Assembly (NCBI GenBank): GCA_949292635.1
Contig: CASEZY010000006.1
Location: 1-64,000, forward strand
Direction: 5' to 3'
Source of the DNA: an uncultured Methanomassiliicoccales archaeon
GTDB lineage: Archaea; Thermoplasmatota; Thermoplasmata; Methanomassiliicoccales; Methanomethylophilaceae
Length of the DNA stretch: 64,000 nucleotides
In this document: one piece after another, positions 57,716 through 64,000 of the stretch
How the letters are laid out: every line of letters starts with the position of its first letter
Position numbering within the stretch: the stretch's first letter is position 1
Position numbers and translations under genes: made by a program
Notes under the pieces: generated by a model
What the model saw: the letters and a program-made list of their open reading frames with translations, nothing else
Databases searched by the model: none
Told to the model about the DNA's origin: nothing

Positions 57716-58387
57716 ATGAAGGTAGCACAGATCGCTGGATTCCTGGGAAGCGGTAAGACCACCGCACTGATGAGGATCGTGGACGGACTCGTCTGCGACG
57801 GACGCAAGGTGGCCATTATAGTCAACGACGTGGGCGACATCAGCGTGGACGCCCGTTACATAGAGGCGCACGGCCTGAAGGCCAAGGAGATCTCAGGAGG
57901 CTGCATCTGCTGCCAGATTGCCGGGTCATTCGCGGAGACCATCGCCAAGCTGTACGATTCATTCGCCCCCGACATCATAATCGTGGAGCCCTCCGGTGTG
58001 GCCATCCCCTGGGGTCTGAAGCGTGCTGCGGAGTATGCCGAGGCGAAGACCGAGGTGGTCATCGAGCACGCTCCCGTGATTACTCTGGTGGACGCATCCA
58101 GGATCGACCTGATGATGAAGGCGGTCAAGCGTCTGGTGGAGACCCAGATCAGGGAGGCTGACATCTGCTTCATCAACAAGGTGGACATCGCATCGGAAGA
58201 GGACATCGCCAAGGCCGGCGAGCTCATCAGGGAGATGAATGACCATGCCGAGATCCACAGGATGTCCTCGGAGACTGGAGAGGGGATCGAGTACGCCGTG
58301 AAGGCCATCGAAGACCGCATCTCCCCGAGATACGATGAGTCCGTGGAGATCCAGAGACTGAAGGAGCAGTACGATTCGGAGGAGTGA
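57716..58387 (+). CDS. CobW/COG0523-type G3E GTPase (metallochaperone)
   Basis: 223 residues: P-loop AGFLGSGKTTALM (about 7-19), the metal-binding motif GGCICCQ (CxCC) near residue 62, the Walker B region IIIVEPSGVA, and NKVDIASEED as the G4 motif. It lacks the C-terminal CobW domain found in longer members. G3E GTPases of this group deliver metal ions (Zn, Co, Ni) to client enzymes. The next gene, reached by a GGAGG site inside this gene's end, encodes a His-rich protein, which suggests a metal store for the chaperone. GAGGTAAGCGG precedes the ATG. Confidence 0.9.
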   Translation: MKVAQIAGFLGSGKTTALMRIVDGLVCDGRKVAIIVNDVGDISVDARYIEAHGLKAKEISGGCICCQIAGSFAETIAKLYDSFAPDIIIVEPSGVAIPWGLKRAAEYAEAKTEVVIEHAPVITLVDASRIDLMMKAVKRLVETQIREADICFINKVDIASEEDIAKAGELIREMNDHAEIHRMSSETGEGIEYAVKAIEDRISPRYDESVEIQRLKEQYDSEE

Positions 58388-58389
58388 CC

Positions 58390-59001
58390 ATGCACGGAGA
58401 CGACCATCACGACCACGAGCACGACCATGATCACGATCATGAGCATGATCACGACCACGGCCACGACTACGACTTCACCGAGGTAGACCACGACGCCGAC
58501 GGAAGGGATTCCGACGTTCCGCACTACGACAACAACCCGGTGGAGGAGGGTAGCAAACTCCATCTCGAGATGCACCGCATGGTGGACGAGCTGGGCAAGT
58601 ATGCCATCGAGATGGAGATCAAGTCAGAGGAGGGTCTGAAGAAATCAGACCTGATAGGATTCATCGAGGACATGATGCACGCATCCGCGTCGGACTGCTT
58701 TCGTCACGGCGCCGACCTGATAGGACACATCAAGTCGTTCCTGAAGGTGGGCGAGCAGAGCGTCATGTGCAGCATGGTGGACGAGAGCATCCCCATCAGG
58801 GTGCAGGACCATATCCAAGCCGACGTGATCTACGACGGCATCTTCGTATTGCACGTGATCGTCCACGGCATCTGGGACGATGTGATCAGGGAATGCACCC
58901 TGGAAGTGCTCCCTGGCATCGCAAAGAAATGGGGTGTGCCGTACCGCATAATGGCGGATTATTACGACACCGAGAAGAGCATCGCCCATCACGAGAAGTG
59001 A
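58390..59001 (+). CDS. His-rich metal-binding protein partner of the CobW-like GTPase
   Basis: 203 residues. The first 40 residues are almost only His, Asp and Glu (HGDDHHDHEHDHDHDHEHD and further DHGHDYD), a likely Zn, Ni or Co reservoir. The rest is an alpha/beta domain of unknown family (KLHLEMHRMVDELGKYAIEME, MMHASASDCFRHGADLIGHIKSFL, IFVLHVIVHGIWDDVIRECTLEVLPGIAKKWG). GGAGG lies seven bases before ATG 58390; a GTG two codons upstream is also in frame. It is translationally coupled to the GTPase gene. A client could be the Zn- or corrinoid-dependent methyltransferase proteins encoded 2.5 kb downstream; that is inference. Confidence 0.75.
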   Translation: MHGDDHHDHEHDHDHDHEHDHDHGHDYDFTEVDHDADGRDSDVPHYDNNPVEEGSKLHLEMHRMVDELGKYAIEMEIKSEEGLKKSDLIGFIEDMMHASASDCFRHGADLIGHIKSFLKVGEQSVMCSMVDESIPIRVQDHIQADVIYDGIFVLHVIVHGIWDDVIRECTLEVLPGIAKKWGVPYRIMADYYDTEKSIAHHEK

Positions 59002-59002
59002 T

Positions 59003-59299
59003 TCAGAGGCTCTTCACCCTGCCGAGGGTCTCAACGGCATCGTCCCAGGTGGCACAGTCCACCACGTCGGTGCCGAACCCCGGTAACTCTTCCACGCTGT
59101 ATTCCTCGGGGCCGCTGAATTTCAGTAGCATAGCCCTGTATCCTTCCCTGCCGTACGTGCCGCTGTGGGGATTGTTAACCACCGATGCGCCGTATCCGTT
59201 GGGGAAGCGGTAGATCTTGTGGAACCTGTTGCTGCTCATGCATCCGCATTTGCAGTCCGCGTTCAGGTCCACGACGTACTCGTCGAATTCCATAGACAT
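59003..59299 (-). CDS. Small uncharacterised protein with CxCxC motif
   Basis: 98 residues. The N-terminus has ADCKCGCMSSNRFHKIYRFPNGYGASVVNNP, in which three closely spaced cysteines may bind a metal or be redox-active. The remainder (LLKFSGPEEYSVEELPGFGTDVVDCATWDDAVETLGRV) is an alpha/beta tail. It begins three bases after the sensor kinase stop on the same strand, so it is probably co-transcribed with it. I do not recognise a family. Confidence 0.65.
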   Translation of the reverse strand: MSMEFDEYVVDLNADCKCGCMSSNRFHKIYRFPNGYGASVVNNPHSGTYGREGYRAMLLKFSGPEEYSVEELPGFGTDVVDCATWDDAVETLGRVKSL

Positions 59300-59302
59300 G
59301 CC

Positions 59303-61174
59303 CTACTGACCTATCTCGTAGCGGTCCGCAGGCACCACGATCTCGAACCTGTTGCCGGAGTTCGGGTCGCCCACCTCGGAGATGGTGAACCCGGACGCGT
59401 CCGCCACGCTCTTGGCCACGAATAGCATTATGGATTTTATATTAGAGGTGTCCAGGAACAGCCTGGCCTTCTTCTCCTCGGGCACGCCCCTGCCGTCGTC
59501 GGCCATGATTATCTTCAATTTGCCCATAGAGATGGAGTATCCCACGGTGATGCGGGTGGCGTTGGATTGCTCGGACACGTACGCCAGGATGTTGAACATG
59601 CTGCGGAGGCTGGCGTCGGCGTAGATGCTCACGTTGCGGAATCCGCAGACTATCTCCAAACGATCGCGGTAGGCGATGGAGACCAGGTCCATCATCACGC
59701 CCAGGTCGAACCACTCCTTCCCGGTCATGCCGATGCTCTCATAGATCCTGAAGAGGTCCACCTCCGCACGGATCTTGTCCAGGCGCTCCCTCACCGCATC
59801 CGCCACGTCCTGCTGCGGTATGGTGCCGATGGCCGCCAGGCATCCGTTGATGCTGTTGGTCACCGACATGTGGAGGATGTCGTAGACGAGCTTGCTCTTG
59901 AAGAAGTTCCTCTCGATGACCTCGGACATGTCCGCGATGCCGGTCACATCCTCGATAATGATGACGAAGTACGGCCTCCCGCTCCCGTCACGGGTGAGGG
60001 AGACCTGCACCCGGTAGCTGCTGCCTTCCACCGAGAAGGTGTGCTCCGCCTTCCCGTTCTCCGCGGAGCGGTCCATGCCGGCCAGCATCTCGGTGATGCC
60101 CTCGGGCAGGGTCCCGGAGACGTTCCCCAGGGAGTCGCCGATGGTCAGTGACGTGAGGGCGCTGGCGCTGGCGTTGCAGTCCTGCACGGTGAGTCTGTCA
60201 TCCAGGAGCAGGATGCCGAAGTTGGCAGCCTTTAGCACACTGCTCATCCTGGTCTCCAGAGAGATTCTCTGCTCCACGGCCAGGCGGTCCATGTACATGC
60301 CGATGAACCCATCCATCATCAGGATGAACTGGTTCATGTCGCTCTCGTTGTAGTCGGTGGTCTTGTTGGCAACTCCCGCGGTACCGACCACCTCTCCGTT
60401 GTGCATCAGCGGGATCATGATCAGGCGTTTGAGCTTCACATGCCCCGGCGGCGTCCCCTTCTTGCCGGGGACGTTGGTGGATTCGTAGTCGTTGACGATG
60501 ATGCTCTGTCTGAGTCTCACCGGCTGTCCCCACAGGCCGGTCTTCTGCATCGGATACCGCATGGGACGGTCCACCATGCTGGTCTGGGCCATGGTCCTCT
60601 GGGACCAGGTCTGCATCTCCAGCTCGTCGGTCTCCTTGTTGTATAACGCCACATAACCGATGTCGCTGGACGTGAGCACTATGCTTTCCTCTAATGCGTA
60701 GTACATCAGCTCCTTGTCACTGTGGCTGTACATACGGGACAGTTTCACCAGCGCCTTCAGCCTGCGGTCGTTGAGACGGTTGTCATTCTCCGCCCTGTTC
60801 TTCTCTATGGAGACCACTATCCTCTTGGCCATGGACAGGAAGTCCACGACAGGCGCGTTCTTCCTGGGGAAGCAGGTGCTGACGTCCATGTCGAAGGCAC
60901 GCAGAAGGCTGTCCTCGTCGAAATCGGGGGCGGTGATCATGAACGGCCGGTAGTCCTTGGCGGCGATGCGCTTCTCGAAGACCCTAAACGCATCGAGCTT
61001 TGGCGGATCGTGGTCGCAGATGTATGCGTCCACGGTGATGTCCCTCACGGAAGCGTCGATCTTGGAGGGATCGTCTATCGGTAGTACCCTGAGGTCGCTC
61101 ATGAACTTGGTCAGATACTTCTCGGCATCTGACAGCCAATTCCTGTTGGCGCTGATCACTGCGACCCTGTACAT
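59303..61174 (-). CDS. Sensor histidine-kinase-like protein: receiver-like, GAF, PAS, HATPase
   Basis: 623 residues, no membrane segment. Residues 1-130 look like a response-receiver fold (AVISANRNWLSDAEKYLTKF, VDAYICDHDPPKLDAFRVF). A GAF domain follows (about 140-300: IVLTSSDIGYVALYNKETDELEMQTW, IIVNDYES, LIMIPLMHNGEVVGTAGVANK). A PAS-like domain spans about 310-420. A weak dimerisation region (KLVYDILHMSVTNSINGCLAAI) may hold the phosphoacceptor His, and the ATPase domain has IMADDGRGVPEEKKARLF. AGGAGGTGAGGG lies directly before the ATG. Divergent placement from the methyl-transfer operon suggests it senses conditions for that system, as redox/heme sensor kinases do in Methanosarcina; that is inference. 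Confidence 0.8.
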   Translation of the reverse strand: MYRVAVISANRNWLSDAEKYLTKFMSDLRVLPIDDPSKIDASVRDITVDAYICDHDPPKLDAFRVFEKRIAAKDYRPFMITAPDFDEDSLLRAFDMDVSTCFPRKNAPVVDFLSMAKRIVVSIEKNRAENDNRLNDRRLKALVKLSRMYSHSDKELMYYALEESIVLTSSDIGYVALYNKETDELEMQTWSQRTMAQTSMVDRPMRYPMQKTGLWGQPVRLRQSIIVNDYESTNVPGKKGTPPGHVKLKRLIMIPLMHNGEVVGTAGVANKTTDYNESDMNQFILMMDGFIGMYMDRLAVEQRISLETRMSSVLKAANFGILLLDDRLTVQDCNASASALTSLTIGDSLGNVSGTLPEGITEMLAGMDRSAENGKAEHTFSVEGSSYRVQVSLTRDGSGRPYFVIIIEDVTGIADMSEVIERNFFKSKLVYDILHMSVTNSINGCLAAIGTIPQQDVADAVRERLDKIRAEVDLFRIYESIGMTGKEWFDLGVMMDLVSIAYRDRLEIVCGFRNVSIYADASLRSMFNILAYVSEQSNATRITVGYSISMGKLKIIMADDGRGVPEEKKARLFLDTSNIKSIMLFVAKSVADASGFTISEVGDPNSGNRFEIVVPADRYEIGQ

Positions 61175-61438: not shown

Positions 61439-62077
61439 ATGTCGAAGGAAGAGATCCTCAGCATGCTGAGTGAGGCCGTCGTCGGCGGAAAGGTCGAGCA
61501 GGCAAAGGTCGGAGCTCAGAAGGCCCTGGACGAGGGCATGGACGCTCTCGAGGCCATCAACGAAGGCCTCGTCAACGGAATGTCGATCGTCGGAGAGAAG
61601 TATGCTGCCCATCAGGTCTACCTCCCGCAGGTACTGATGTCGGCGCACACCATGTACGCCGGACTCGACATCCTGCTCCCTGCGATCCCCAAGACTCAGC
61701 TGGACGACAGGAAGAAGTGCAGCATCTGCGTCGTGGAGGGAGATGTCCACGACATCGGAAAGAACATCGTCAAGACTATGATGACCGCTGCCGGATATGA
61801 CGTGGTCGACCTCGGAAAGGACGTCCCCGCGGACCAGATTGTGGAGACCGCCGATAAGGAGGCCGTGGACGTGGTCGCAATGTCCACCCTCATGACTCCC
61901 ACAATGGACGGCATGAAGGAGGTCATCGACGGACTGGTGGAGAGCGGAACCCGCAGCAAGGTCAAGGTCTGTATCGGCGGACCGCCCACATCCCCCGCCT
62001 TCGCGGAGGAGATCGGTGCCGACCACAGGGACACCAACGCCCAGGACTGCGTCGGCTGGCTGAAAGAGGTGTTGTGA
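61439..62077 (+). CDS. Corrinoid (methyl-carrier) protein of a methyltransferase system
   Basis: 212 residues. The N-terminal helical cap (residues 1-85) has LVNGMSIVGEKYAAHQVYLPQVLMSAHTMYAGLDIL. The B12-binding domain has the cobalt-ligand motif EGDVHDIGKNIVKTMMTAAGYDVVDLGKDVP (lower-axial His in DVHDIGKN) and ends VCIGGPPTSPAFAEEIGADH. It carries a methyl group from a substrate-specific methyltransferase to the CoM-specific one. The downstream UroD-type methyltransferase starts two bases after its stop. The primary methyl donor is not shown by the sequence, because no substrate methyltransferase (MtmB, MtbB, MttB or MtaB type) is in the window. Confidence 0.94.
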   Translation: MSKEEILSMLSEAVVGGKVEQAKVGAQKALDEGMDALEAINEGLVNGMSIVGEKYAAHQVYLPQVLMSAHTMYAGLDILLPAIPKTQLDDRKKCSICVVEGDVHDIGKNIVKTMMTAAGYDVVDLGKDVPADQIVETADKEAVDVVAMSTLMTPTMDGMKEVIDGLVESGTRSKVKVCIGGPPTSPAFAEEIGADHRDTNAQDCVGWLKEVL

Positions 62078-62078
62078 T

Positions 62079-63161
62079 ATGGCCGAGATGAACCACATCG
62101 AGAGGGCAATGGCCGCTCTCGGCAACCAGGAGGTCGACAGGCTCACCACCTATCCCATCGCCTGCGGTGTCTGCAGGAAGCTGCTGCCGGGCAACGTGAC
62201 CTACAAGCAGTGGTGCAGCGACCCCAAGCTCTTCGCTGACGCGTTCATCGCCGGACAGAAGTACTTCGACTTCGACTTTTGCATCGGTCTGATGGACCTG
62301 TCCGTCATGGCTGGAGACCTGGGAGCCCACGTTAGGATGGATGAGGAGAACACCCCCTTCGTGGACCAGCACATCGTCCACGACCCCGAGGACTACGAGA
62401 AGTTGGAGGTCCCCGACATCAGGAAGGGAAGGTCCAACGTCCTTCTGGAGGGGACCAAGATCTACGCCGACAAGCTGAAGGGCGAAGTCATCACCGCCGG
62501 ATTCCTGGAGGGCCCCCTGCTGGCACTGTCCCAGTCCGCCGGAGCCGAGAGGATGTTCATGGACATGTTCACCAACCCCGAGCTGATCCACAAGGCCATG
62601 GAGGTCACCACCGCCTACGACGTTGAGATGGTGAAGGCCTTCGCCCAGACAGGTGTCAACGGACTGTGCTGGGACTACCTGTGGGCCAACTACTCCTGTC
62701 TAGGAGACGCGGAGTACGGAGAGTTCGAGGCGAACAAGTACGCCAGCAAGCTCAACCAGCTGACGCAGGACGAGGGAATGGCCCTGGCCATCCACAACTG
62801 CGCCGACCTGCCCCACCTGGACACCCAGATCCTGAAGTACAAACCCGCCATCTACTCCATGGCATATTACCCGCTGATCCCTGGATCCCCCAAGGCATCC
62901 GAAGTCATCGAGAAGGGCTACGCCGACAAGTGCCTGGTCGCCGGTCAGATCGACCCCCAGCTCTTCGTCAGGGGTTCCGTGGAGAAGATCAGCAAGGTCA
63001 CCACCGACCTGTGCCAGGAGGTCAAGACCGCACTGTGCAAGAGGGGAATCAAGTCCTCCTACTGCATCTCCTCCGGATGCGAGGTCCCGCCGGATATCGG
63101 AACCAAGATGGAGAACATCAAGGCGGTCGTCGACATCACCAAGACGGCAGGAGCGTTCTGA
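62079..63161 (+). CDS. UroD-family methylcobamide:thiol methyltransferase (MtaA/MtbA/MtsA-like)
   Basis: 360 residues of the uroporphyrinogen-decarboxylase fold used by methylcobamide:CoM methyltransferases. The zinc ligands are visible as AIHNCADLPHLD (His-x-Cys) and ISSGCEVPPDIG (Cys) near the C-terminus. The N-terminus (NHIERAMAALGNQEVDRLTTYPIACGVCRKLLPG) is family-typical. It transfers the methyl of the corrinoid protein encoded just upstream to coenzyme M or another thiol. Codon use is strongly biased, as in highly expressed genes. Which of the MtaA, MtbA or MtsA groups it belongs to is not decided. Confidence 0.9.
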   Translation: MAEMNHIERAMAALGNQEVDRLTTYPIACGVCRKLLPGNVTYKQWCSDPKLFADAFIAGQKYFDFDFCIGLMDLSVMAGDLGAHVRMDEENTPFVDQHIVHDPEDYEKLEVPDIRKGRSNVLLEGTKIYADKLKGEVITAGFLEGPLLALSQSAGAERMFMDMFTNPELIHKAMEVTTAYDVEMVKAFAQTGVNGLCWDYLWANYSCLGDAEYGEFEANKYASKLNQLTQDEGMALAIHNCADLPHLDTQILKYKPAIYSMAYYPLIPGSPKASEVIEKGYADKCLVAGQIDPQLFVRGSVEKISKVTTDLCQEVKTALCKRGIKSSYCISSGCEVPPDIGTKMENIKAVVDITKTAGAF

Positions 63162-63186
63162 GTAGAATTTAATCACCCTTAAACCC

Positions 63187-63230
63187 CTTCCAAACACCTT
63201 CCAAACACCTTCCAAACATCTTGAAACACG
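63187..63230. repeat. 11-bp tandem repeats CTTCCAAACAC
   Basis: CTTCCAAACAC occurs at 63187 and 63198, CTTCCAAACAT at 63209 and a degenerate CTTGAAACACG at 63220, followed by TTCCAAAT. The period of 11 equals one helical turn, so bound protein would stack on one face. The array fills the gap between the methyltransferase stop and the zinc-ribbon gene. Confidence 0.7.
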
Positions 63231-63262
63231 TTCCAAATAGATCGATACCGGGAGAGTTGCAG

Positions 63263-63577
63263 ATGGCGGACGGATATTCGGAGGCTATGAAGAGGAAGGG
63301 GTTCTCTTACGAGACCACGGCGGCGTTGAAGAAGTTCAAATGCCCTCACTGCGGCTTCGAGTTCTCCATGGTCTACGGGCGCACGTTCGCCTGCCAGGGG
63401 TGCTCCGAGGCGCTGAAGGGCTGTCCCAAGATGAGGTGCGCCAAGTGCGACTCCGAATTCTGGATCAAGGAGACACCTCAGGTCCATAACGAGCTGCAGC
63501 AGCGGTTCATGGCGGATCACATAGCCAAGGTCGTGGCCGATTATCGCAGGGATTACGGACTGGTTGGCAACAGGTGA
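63263..63577 (+). CDS. Zinc-ribbon protein of the methyltransferase cluster
   Basis: 104 residues with eight cysteines in paired knuckles: FKCPHCGFEFSMVYGRTFACQGCSEALKGCPKMRCAKCDSEFWI. The C-terminal helix (NELQQRFMADHIAKVVADYRRDYG) is charged. It is probably a Zn or Fe binding adaptor. GGAGAG lies seven bases before ATG 63263. It is followed after four bases by the hydantoinase-A/ASKHA gene, so these two are co-translated. I do not know a characterised homologue. Confidence 0.8.
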   Translation: MADGYSEAMKRKGFSYETTAALKKFKCPHCGFEFSMVYGRTFACQGCSEALKGCPKMRCAKCDSEFWIKETPQVHNELQQRFMADHIAKVVADYRRDYGLVGNR

Positions 63578-63581
63578 TCGT

Positions 63582-64000
63582 ATGCCTGAATATGGCCTGG
63601 GATTCGATACGGGCGGCACCTATACAGACGCCGTCATAATGGATTTTACAACGGGCGAGGTGGTCTGCAGCGCCAAGTCGCTGACCACCCGCTACGACCT
63701 CTCCGTAGGCATCGCCGGCTCCCTGGAAGGCTTCGACCAGGAGATGCTCAGACATGTGAGGATGGTCTCCCTCTCGTCCACCCTGGCCACCAACTCCATC
63801 GTGGAAGGCAAGGGCTGCAGGGTGGCTTTGGTGTCCATAGGCAGGGAGTACGATAGGTCGGTCCCGGTGGACCAGTACATCCGTGTCGCCGGGGGGCATA
63901 CCCTCAACGGCACCGAGGCGGAGGAACTGGACGAGGTTGCCGTAGTGAATTTCCTGGAATCCGTCAAGGGGAATGTGGACGGCGTGGCCGTCACCGGATA
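63582..64000 (+). CDS. Hydantoinase A / ASKHA-fold ATPase, N-terminal part (cut by window end)
   Basis: 139 residues are visible. The start GLGFDTGGTYTDAVIMDFTTGEVVCSAKSLTTRYDLSVGIAGSLEGF is the phosphate-binding motif of hydantoinase/oxoprolinase proteins, followed by VSLSSTLATNSIVEGKGCRVALVSIG. Known family members open hydantoin or oxoproline rings with ATP. The same ASKHA fold is used by ATPases that reactivate oxidised corrinoid proteins. Location after a corrinoid protein and methyltransferase allows either a substrate-processing role or a corrinoid-reactivation role; the missing C-terminal part is needed to choose. Confidence 0.85.
   Translation, partial: MPEYGLGFDTGGTYTDAVIMDFTTGEVVCSAKSLTTRYDLSVGIAGSLEGFDQEMLRHVRMVSLSSTLATNSIVEGKGCRVALVSIGREYDRSVPVDQYIRVAGGHTLNGTEAEELDEVAVVNFLESVKGNVDGVAVTG

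Follow-up and report, generated by a model that had tools for sequence, protein, structure and literature searches.

Genes for HyuA-type ATPases of the ASKHA fold that lie beside corrinoid methyl-transfer systems are mentioned as hydantoinases in the available portions of two published reports, and no role is given for them there (PMC9768040, PMC11619418). One such gene ends a cluster at the edge of the DNA analysed here, positions 1 to 64,000 of contig CASEZY010000006.1 (assembly GCA_949292635.1, uncultured Methanomassiliicoccales archaeon; the whole stretch of 64,000 nucleotides is called the window below). The cluster, its conservation within the order and the surroundings of its ASKHA gene in other archaea and in bacteria were investigated. 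The protein is proposed, with about even confidence, to be an ATP-dependent maintenance factor for corrinoid methyl-transfer proteins that acts alongside RamA/RACo and not in place of it.

As far as the available text of these reports goes, a like gene, 'HydA', stands beside corrinoid methyltransferases in the glycine betaine cluster of 'Ca. Formimonas warabiya' (the likeness being one of description, not of sequence), and in strain DCMF glycine betaine strongly induces a nine-gene betaine cluster in which such a protein is encoded (both PMC9768040). The hydantoinases MA4395/MA4396 of Methanosarcina acetivorans have a like gene context (PMC11619418); the gene order of our locus L165 fits this description, which is a comparison of order and not of sequences.

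The HyuA/OplA/AcxA-type subunits of hydantoinase, oxoprolinase, acetone and acetophenone carboxylase and caprolactamase (alpha subunit) have the fold, the ATP motifs, PF05378 and the first half of PF01968 in common with the window protein. The latter differs from them by having no HyuB partner, by a second half of PF01968 that is not recognised, by a distinct C-terminal part, by its corrinoid context and by the very long branch that separates it from the true HyuA of genome G004. RamA/RACo (DUF4445, PF14574) is likewise an ASKHA-fold ATPase encoded beside corrinoid proteins, with DUF1638 and CobW-type neighbours; the window protein differs from it in having neither DUF4445 nor an Fe-S motif, and it co-occurs with RACo instead of replacing it. 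The corrinoid protein and URO-D methyltransferase of the cluster, found with no separate first methyltransferase, are a combination shared with MtsA/MtsB and with the type 1 mlp clusters. In the mlp clusters, several Mlp proteins are encoded together with a Ram/RACE protein (PMC10418091), whereas the window has a HyuA-type ASKHA protein, a zinc ribbon and a CobW pair.

Conservation and genomic association

In the window, a corrinoid protein, a URO-D-type methyltransferase (URO1), a zinc-ribbon protein and the ASKHA protein are encoded in a tight array on one strand, and all four genes were located where a preliminary description, made from the letters of the window, had placed them. Sixty regions around ASKHA genes were collected from genomes of the order; order-wide presence counts refer to 120 genomes. 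The usual array in the 60 regions consists of corrinoid, URO-D, CobW GTPase, His-rich protein, zinc ribbon and ASKHA genes and is often trailed by DUF1638 or DGC-domain genes. With or without the CobW and His-rich genes it occurs in several families of the order, and the gene order is conserved across many genera, which settles a point that the preliminary description had raised. The four-gene cluster described there is real, but the module is larger and includes the CobW-type GTPase and the His-rich protein; in the window these two are split from the rest of the array by two minus-strand genes (59003-61174), and in relatives they lie inside the cluster, with CobW between URO-D and zinc ribbon in, for example, L044, L053, L106, L108 and L110. 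The module is thus both real and conserved.

Where zinc-ribbon and ASKHA genes are on the same strand, the gap between them is within about 100 nt, and at 15 of the 28 zinc-ribbon loci the two share a strand and are less than 50 nt apart or overlap. A zinc ribbon of the cluster type (>135 bits) is present in 57 of the 120 genomes, and an ASKHA gene lies within 7 kb of at least 40 of the 63 cluster-type zinc-ribbon genes, in at least 39 genomes; PF01968 was matched in 108 genomes. The genome holding the window (1.48 Mb; window on its contig C6) carries a second cluster on another contig, with a corrinoid gene, an ASKHA gene (737 residues) and an MtaA-family URO-D gene (315 bits).

A scan of genome contigs with a single ASKHA sequence gave no matches, and an alignment-based scan of named genomes gave 80 loci; loci outside the order were picked by ASKHA alone. 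A corrinoid gene lies within 5 kb of 51 of the 87 ASKHA genes of the order, compared with an estimated background of about 4% (derived from 336 corrinoid genes in 61 genomes and ignoring kinship among genomes). When corrinoid, URO-D, MttB, MtaB and RACo genes are counted together, at least one of them lies at a distance of 5 kb or less from 59 of the 87 ASKHA genes of the order and from 36 of the 77 found elsewhere. The neighbours include MtaBC in Methanolobus, Methanosarcina and Methanococcoides and MttB-family genes in bacteria and archaea, Bacillota and Chloroflexi among them; corrinoid/URO-D pairs and fused corrinoid proteins also occur. Because ASKHA genes adjoin methyl-transfer genes across so many archaea and bacteria, the protein probably helps to maintain a B12 protein rather than digesting hydantoins.

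In four bacterial loci DUF1638 is fused to ASKHA (each E <1e-39), and unfused DUF1638 genes adjoin ASKHA genes at further loci, type-1 clusters (defined below) included. In Phaeobacter inhibens two proteins, DUF1638 and one like RamA, are needed along with a split methionine synthase, from which B12 reactivation was inferred (Price et al., PMC5764234). DUF1638 acts there with a RamA-like protein, unlike in the several lineages in which it is fused to, or encoded beside, the ASKHA family of the window. The fusions point to reactivation. At L150, L154 and L160, bacterial ASKHA relatives are followed by a protein of about 590 residues with no corrinoid genes near; this may be a separate function of the family.

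Properties of the ASKHA protein

The phosphate-1, phosphate-2 and adenosine motifs (DTGGTYTD, DIGGTTTD and GIGAP region) are invariant or nearly so in 18 aligned members. All 18 also match PF13941 (MutL), and 12 of them match BcrAD_BadFG, two families that include ATP-dependent activators or reactivators. No 4Fe-4S motif was found in 163 members of the ASKHA family, and Pfam scans of the window protein and 17 others gave neither an Fe-S domain nor a match to DUF4445. An AlphaFold2 model of the window protein was obtained with pLDDT 85 and pTM 0.80, and the nearest PDB folds identified with Foldseek were acetone carboxylase beta, N-methylhydantoinase, Apc and caprolactamase alpha; sequence likeness to these is mostly over residues 1-325.

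The last result bears on a second suggestion of the preliminary description, namely that the protein opens a ring such as that of N-methylhydantoin and so provides a methylated substrate. A catabolic ATP-dependent ring-opening or carboxylating enzyme with this task would account for the fold and for the N-terminal half, which match N-methylhydantoinase, caprolactamase and the acetone and acetophenone carboxylases. HyuB (PF02538), however, is absent from 119 of the 120 genomes, that of the window included, and the sole copy adjoins the true HyuA of G004, the single one found in the order. In that HyuA the PF01968 match covers positions 1-284 of 291, whereas it is limited to positions 1-138 in the window protein and ends at 138-145 throughout the ASKHA family, Methanosarcina and bacterial relatives included. 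The nearest curated enzyme, caprolactamase alpha, is matched with 100.9 bits against a cut-off of 1000. The ASKHA protein also accompanies corrinoid systems for many unrelated substrates. In the larger tree, which was built with FastTree and in which long branches are unsure, a type-1 clade (that of the window), a type-2 clade, a Methanosarcinaceae clade and bacterial clades were obtained, all far from true HyuA, and no grouping of the ASKHA protein with catabolic oxoprolinases was seen. Ring opening is strongly disfavoured on these grounds and is regarded as extremely improbable.

An insert at about residues 375-425 of the window protein gives weak winged-helix/helix-turn-helix matches in several members. 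The protein might accordingly be viewed as a sensor of substrate or redox state that regulates methyltransferase genes through this insert, the matches (Sigma70_r4, HTH_5, MarR_2, TrmB, DprA_WH) being accompanied by the recurrence near such clusters of a gene of the GAF/HATPase sensor type. Every one of the helix-turn-helix matches is far under its curated cut-off, and the conservation of the ATP motifs in the 18 members also speaks against a sensor, so that this role is considered very improbable.

Two features concern other members of the family. The second ASKHA protein (P0002) starts with about 80 extra N-terminal residues (L006:11634-11880), with a motif that resembles, by eye only, the start of a transposase-like open reading frame at L007:10133. 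Tandem ASKHA genes (type 2, then type 1) were observed in one cluster with two corrinoid genes at L082, L083, L112 and L113.

Relation to RamA/RACo

The preliminary description had noted correctly that no RamA-type reactivase is encoded in the window. Three RACo/RamA genes are present elsewhere in the genome: that of L187 accompanies mtaBC, that of L186 stands alone and that of L185 adjoins a CdhDE/ACS-like set. RamA/RACo was found in all 120 genomes of the order. At L185:11755-19446, the ACS-like and CdhD/CdhE-like genes (the latter for a corrinoid Fe-S protein) adjoin a RACo of the 2Fe-2S type, in a genome that resembles that of a methanol-reducing methanogen. RACo lies within 5 kb of 21 of the 164 ASKHA genes (12 in the order, 9 outside), so that the two proteins are more likely to be complementary.

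These data were set against the other suggestion of the preliminary description, that ASKHA reactivates the corrinoid with ATP and that the zinc ribbon is its adaptor. In its full form, this is a stand-alone ATP-dependent reductive reactivase that replaces RamA and for which the zinc ribbon carries electrons or forms a bridge. RACo is missing from the vicinity of most type-1 clusters that hold a zinc ribbon, which would suit such a replacement, as would the DUF1638 fusions. The CobW/His-rich pair moreover joins ASKHA in type-1 clusters and RamA in the mtaBC operons of L190, L191, L192, L194 and L196, so that ASKHA appears to fill a slot like that of RamA; this argument loses force because MtaB and URO-D are zinc enzymes that the pair might serve just as well. 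The absence of an Fe-S motif from the 163 ASKHA members and the general presence of RamA/RACo, with three copies in the genome of the window, speak against replacement. RACo and ASKHA also share clusters, including those of the early type-1 members L061, L079 and L117, and a zinc ribbon beside ASKHA was not found outside the order, where loci had been picked by ASKHA. Replacement of RamA is accordingly judged to be rather improbable. What stands of the earlier suggestion is the strong link to corrinoid proteins, together with the DUF1638 fusions; the adaptor and the substitution for RamA are weakened.

Features of the window and accessory genes

The features of the cluster are collated in Table 1. 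The zinc ribbon had been described as a Cys8 protein; the actual count is seven cysteine residues, all of them invariant in 21 homologues, as is one histidine. Whether the ASKHA gene is full length and what follows it could be answered from the sequence beyond the window edge: the gene is complete, and downstream of it neither a HyuB gene nor a gene for a substrate methyltransferase was found, the next gene encoding a formate/nitrite-type transporter. At 59303-61174, with the CobW pair on one side and the corrinoid gene on the other, a GAF/HATPase sensor-type protein is encoded; related genes occur near such clusters in other genomes.

Table 1. Cluster features, with coordinates given as window positions.
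Feature	Position	Strand	Basis
CobW/COG0523-type GTPase, G domain only, 223 aa	57716..58387	+	PF02492 4.4e-39
His-rich protein, conserved domain about 58531-58998	58384..59001	+	hhalign to C-terminal half of CobW
Corrinoid protein, MtxC-type, 212 aa	61439..62077	+	PF02310 5.5e-26, PF02607 3.3e-20
URO-D-type methyltransferase (URO1), divergent from MtaA/CmuA	62079..63161	+	PF01208 1.4e-44
Zinc-ribbon protein, CxxC, CxxC, C, CxxC + invariant His	about 63263..63577	+	Alignment of 21 homologues
HyuA-type ASKHA ATPase, 685 aa	63582..64000 in window, on to window-equivalent 65639 (L004:7582-9639)	+	PF05378 3.7e-26, PF01968 4.4e-31

The His-rich protein was aligned by hhalign with the C-terminal half of Methanosarcinaceae CobW (373-385 residues) at 90% probability and E 1.7e-6. 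Its AlphaFold2 model has pLDDT 88, residues H15, C56, H66, H108 and H112 are invariant in 18 homologues, and a PDB fold search gave weak matches, none with E <=0.001, with the CobW-type protein YjiA among them. The profile comparison was clearer than the fold search, and by it the conserved domain resembles the C-terminal half of full-length CobW, separated into a protein of its own. Full-length CobW genes of Methanosarcinaceae lie between RamA and mtaBC in L130, L135 and L156, and the split CobW/His-rich pair directly adjoins RamA in five genomes of the order; judging from these positions, the same GTPase pair is placed with RamA in one setting and with ASKHA in another. Recoding of the His-rich gene, suggested by in-frame stops in some genomes, was rejected, since in L053, the case that was checked, the sole stop is the normal end of the gene.

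A zinc-ribbon match of some kind was obtained in 117 of the 120 genomes. A second paralogue (about 70-95 bits) occurs in most genomes of the order, where its neighbours are a radical SAM gene that resembles tetraether synthase and a URO-D gene of divergent type (in the genome of the window, G000:C1:130270-130551 / L185:4256-4558). This almost order-wide paralogue, lying near another URO-D gene, makes it less likely that the zinc ribbon is an adaptor specific to the cluster.

The accessory genes also allow the whole set to be read as a maturation cassette, in which ASKHA would be an ATP-dependent chaperone that inserts the cobamide into newly made corrinoid protein, and CobW, the His-rich protein and the zinc ribbon would load zinc into URO-D. 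All accessory genes other than ASKHA resemble metal-handling genes, and the MutL-like matches in all 18 aligned members agree with a chaperone of this kind. An in vitro pathway assembled from components that did not include ASKHA (PMC6855144; see below) would fit a loading factor as well, provided that the corrinoid protein came with its cofactor. The co-location with RACo and the link to DUF1638 favour reactivation instead, and cofactor loading is held to be an unlikely alternative.

Corrinoid/URO-D pair

The window corrinoid protein scores 208 bits against TIGR02370, just under the cut-off of 215.3, and its best PDB matches are methylamine corrinoid proteins; the DxHxxG motif is present in all 82 corrinoid proteins of the set. 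URO1 differs from MtaA/CmuA in scoring far under the corresponding models, with 84.2 bits against cut-offs of 235-244 (235.4 for the MtaA/CmuA model), which the URO-D protein of the second cluster passes. The nearest solved structure is that of MtaA (4ay7), and the zinc motif H239-x-C241 ... C334 is kept in almost all of 61 sequences (H239 in 61, C241 and C334 in 60 each). Four corrinoid genes, two of them MtaC, were counted in the genome of the window, from which MttB and MtmB are absent (MtbB was not searched for); the window pair is therefore left with no visible first methyltransferase except URO1. An arrangement like that of MtsA/MtsB, in which the corrinoid protein and the zinc-dependent URO-D protein would together carry out both methyl-transfer half-reactions, is the simplest reading.

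Proposed function

From the gene context and the published genetics of the partner domain we infer the following function of ASKHA. The ASKHA protein would bind the corrinoid protein, and an ATP-driven movement of its lobes would repair or reset the corrinoid cofactor, either by exposing it for reduction or by allowing damaged corrinoid to be exchanged or reloaded. In this it would act together with the Fe-S protein RamA/RACo. The protein encoded in the window would serve a corrinoid protein and a zinc-dependent URO-D protein that probably act as MtsA and MtsB do, and the zinc ribbon and the split CobW (GTPase plus C-terminal partner) resemble metal-supply factors for this pair.

Several observations weigh against a maintenance role. 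Many ASKHA members, including about half of those outside the order, lack a methyl-transfer gene at 5 kb or less, and the fold search ranks carboxylases and hydantoinases first and RACo only at 39-40. DUF1638 itself is not known to have an activity, and no specific role was proposed for it in PMC5764234. The betaine:coenzyme M pathway of Methanolobus vulcani B1d was rebuilt in vitro from MtgB, MtgC, RamM, MtaA, ATP and Ti(III) citrate (PMC6855144). Locus L156, in which the genes follow one another as RACo, CobW, corrinoid, MtaB, ASKHA and URO-D, fits the published MV10335 (RamM), MV10345 (MtaC), MV10350 (MtaB) and MV10360 (MtaA), by which the ASKHA gene of this organism would be MV10355, a tag that is not mentioned in PMC6855144. 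Since the rebuilt pathway contained no ASKHA protein, RamM-driven reduction by Ti(III) citrate does not depend on it; it may nonetheless have a role in vivo. With these points taken into account, maintenance of corrinoid proteins alongside RamA/RACo is the best explanation at hand and is held at even strength.

An activity of a related kind has long had a name: the methyltransferase activation protein (MAP) of Methanosarcina barkeri is an ATP-dependent activator of MtaBC without an Fe-S cluster, and we know of no agreed gene for it. No sequence of MAP was found in the literature searched, and its agreement with the ASKHA family is limited to gene context and the lack of an Fe-S motif. It is a doubtful, speculative idea that the ASKHA family forms a second, Fe-S-free class of ATP-dependent corrinoid activators working with RamA, one that in Methanosarcina could be the MAP of the methanol system.

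Annotation pipelines label these ASKHA genes hydantoinase or oxoprolinase, and because of such labels a likely general part of anaerobic methyl metabolism, spanning methanol, betaine, methyl-sulfide and URO-D systems, has remained hidden. The ASKHA gene is a concrete candidate for ATP-dependent corrinoid activation beyond RamA. If the proposed role is correct, in vitro systems built without ASKHA may miss a maintenance step that operates in vivo, and the part of DUF1638 in B12 reactivation would gain a partner.

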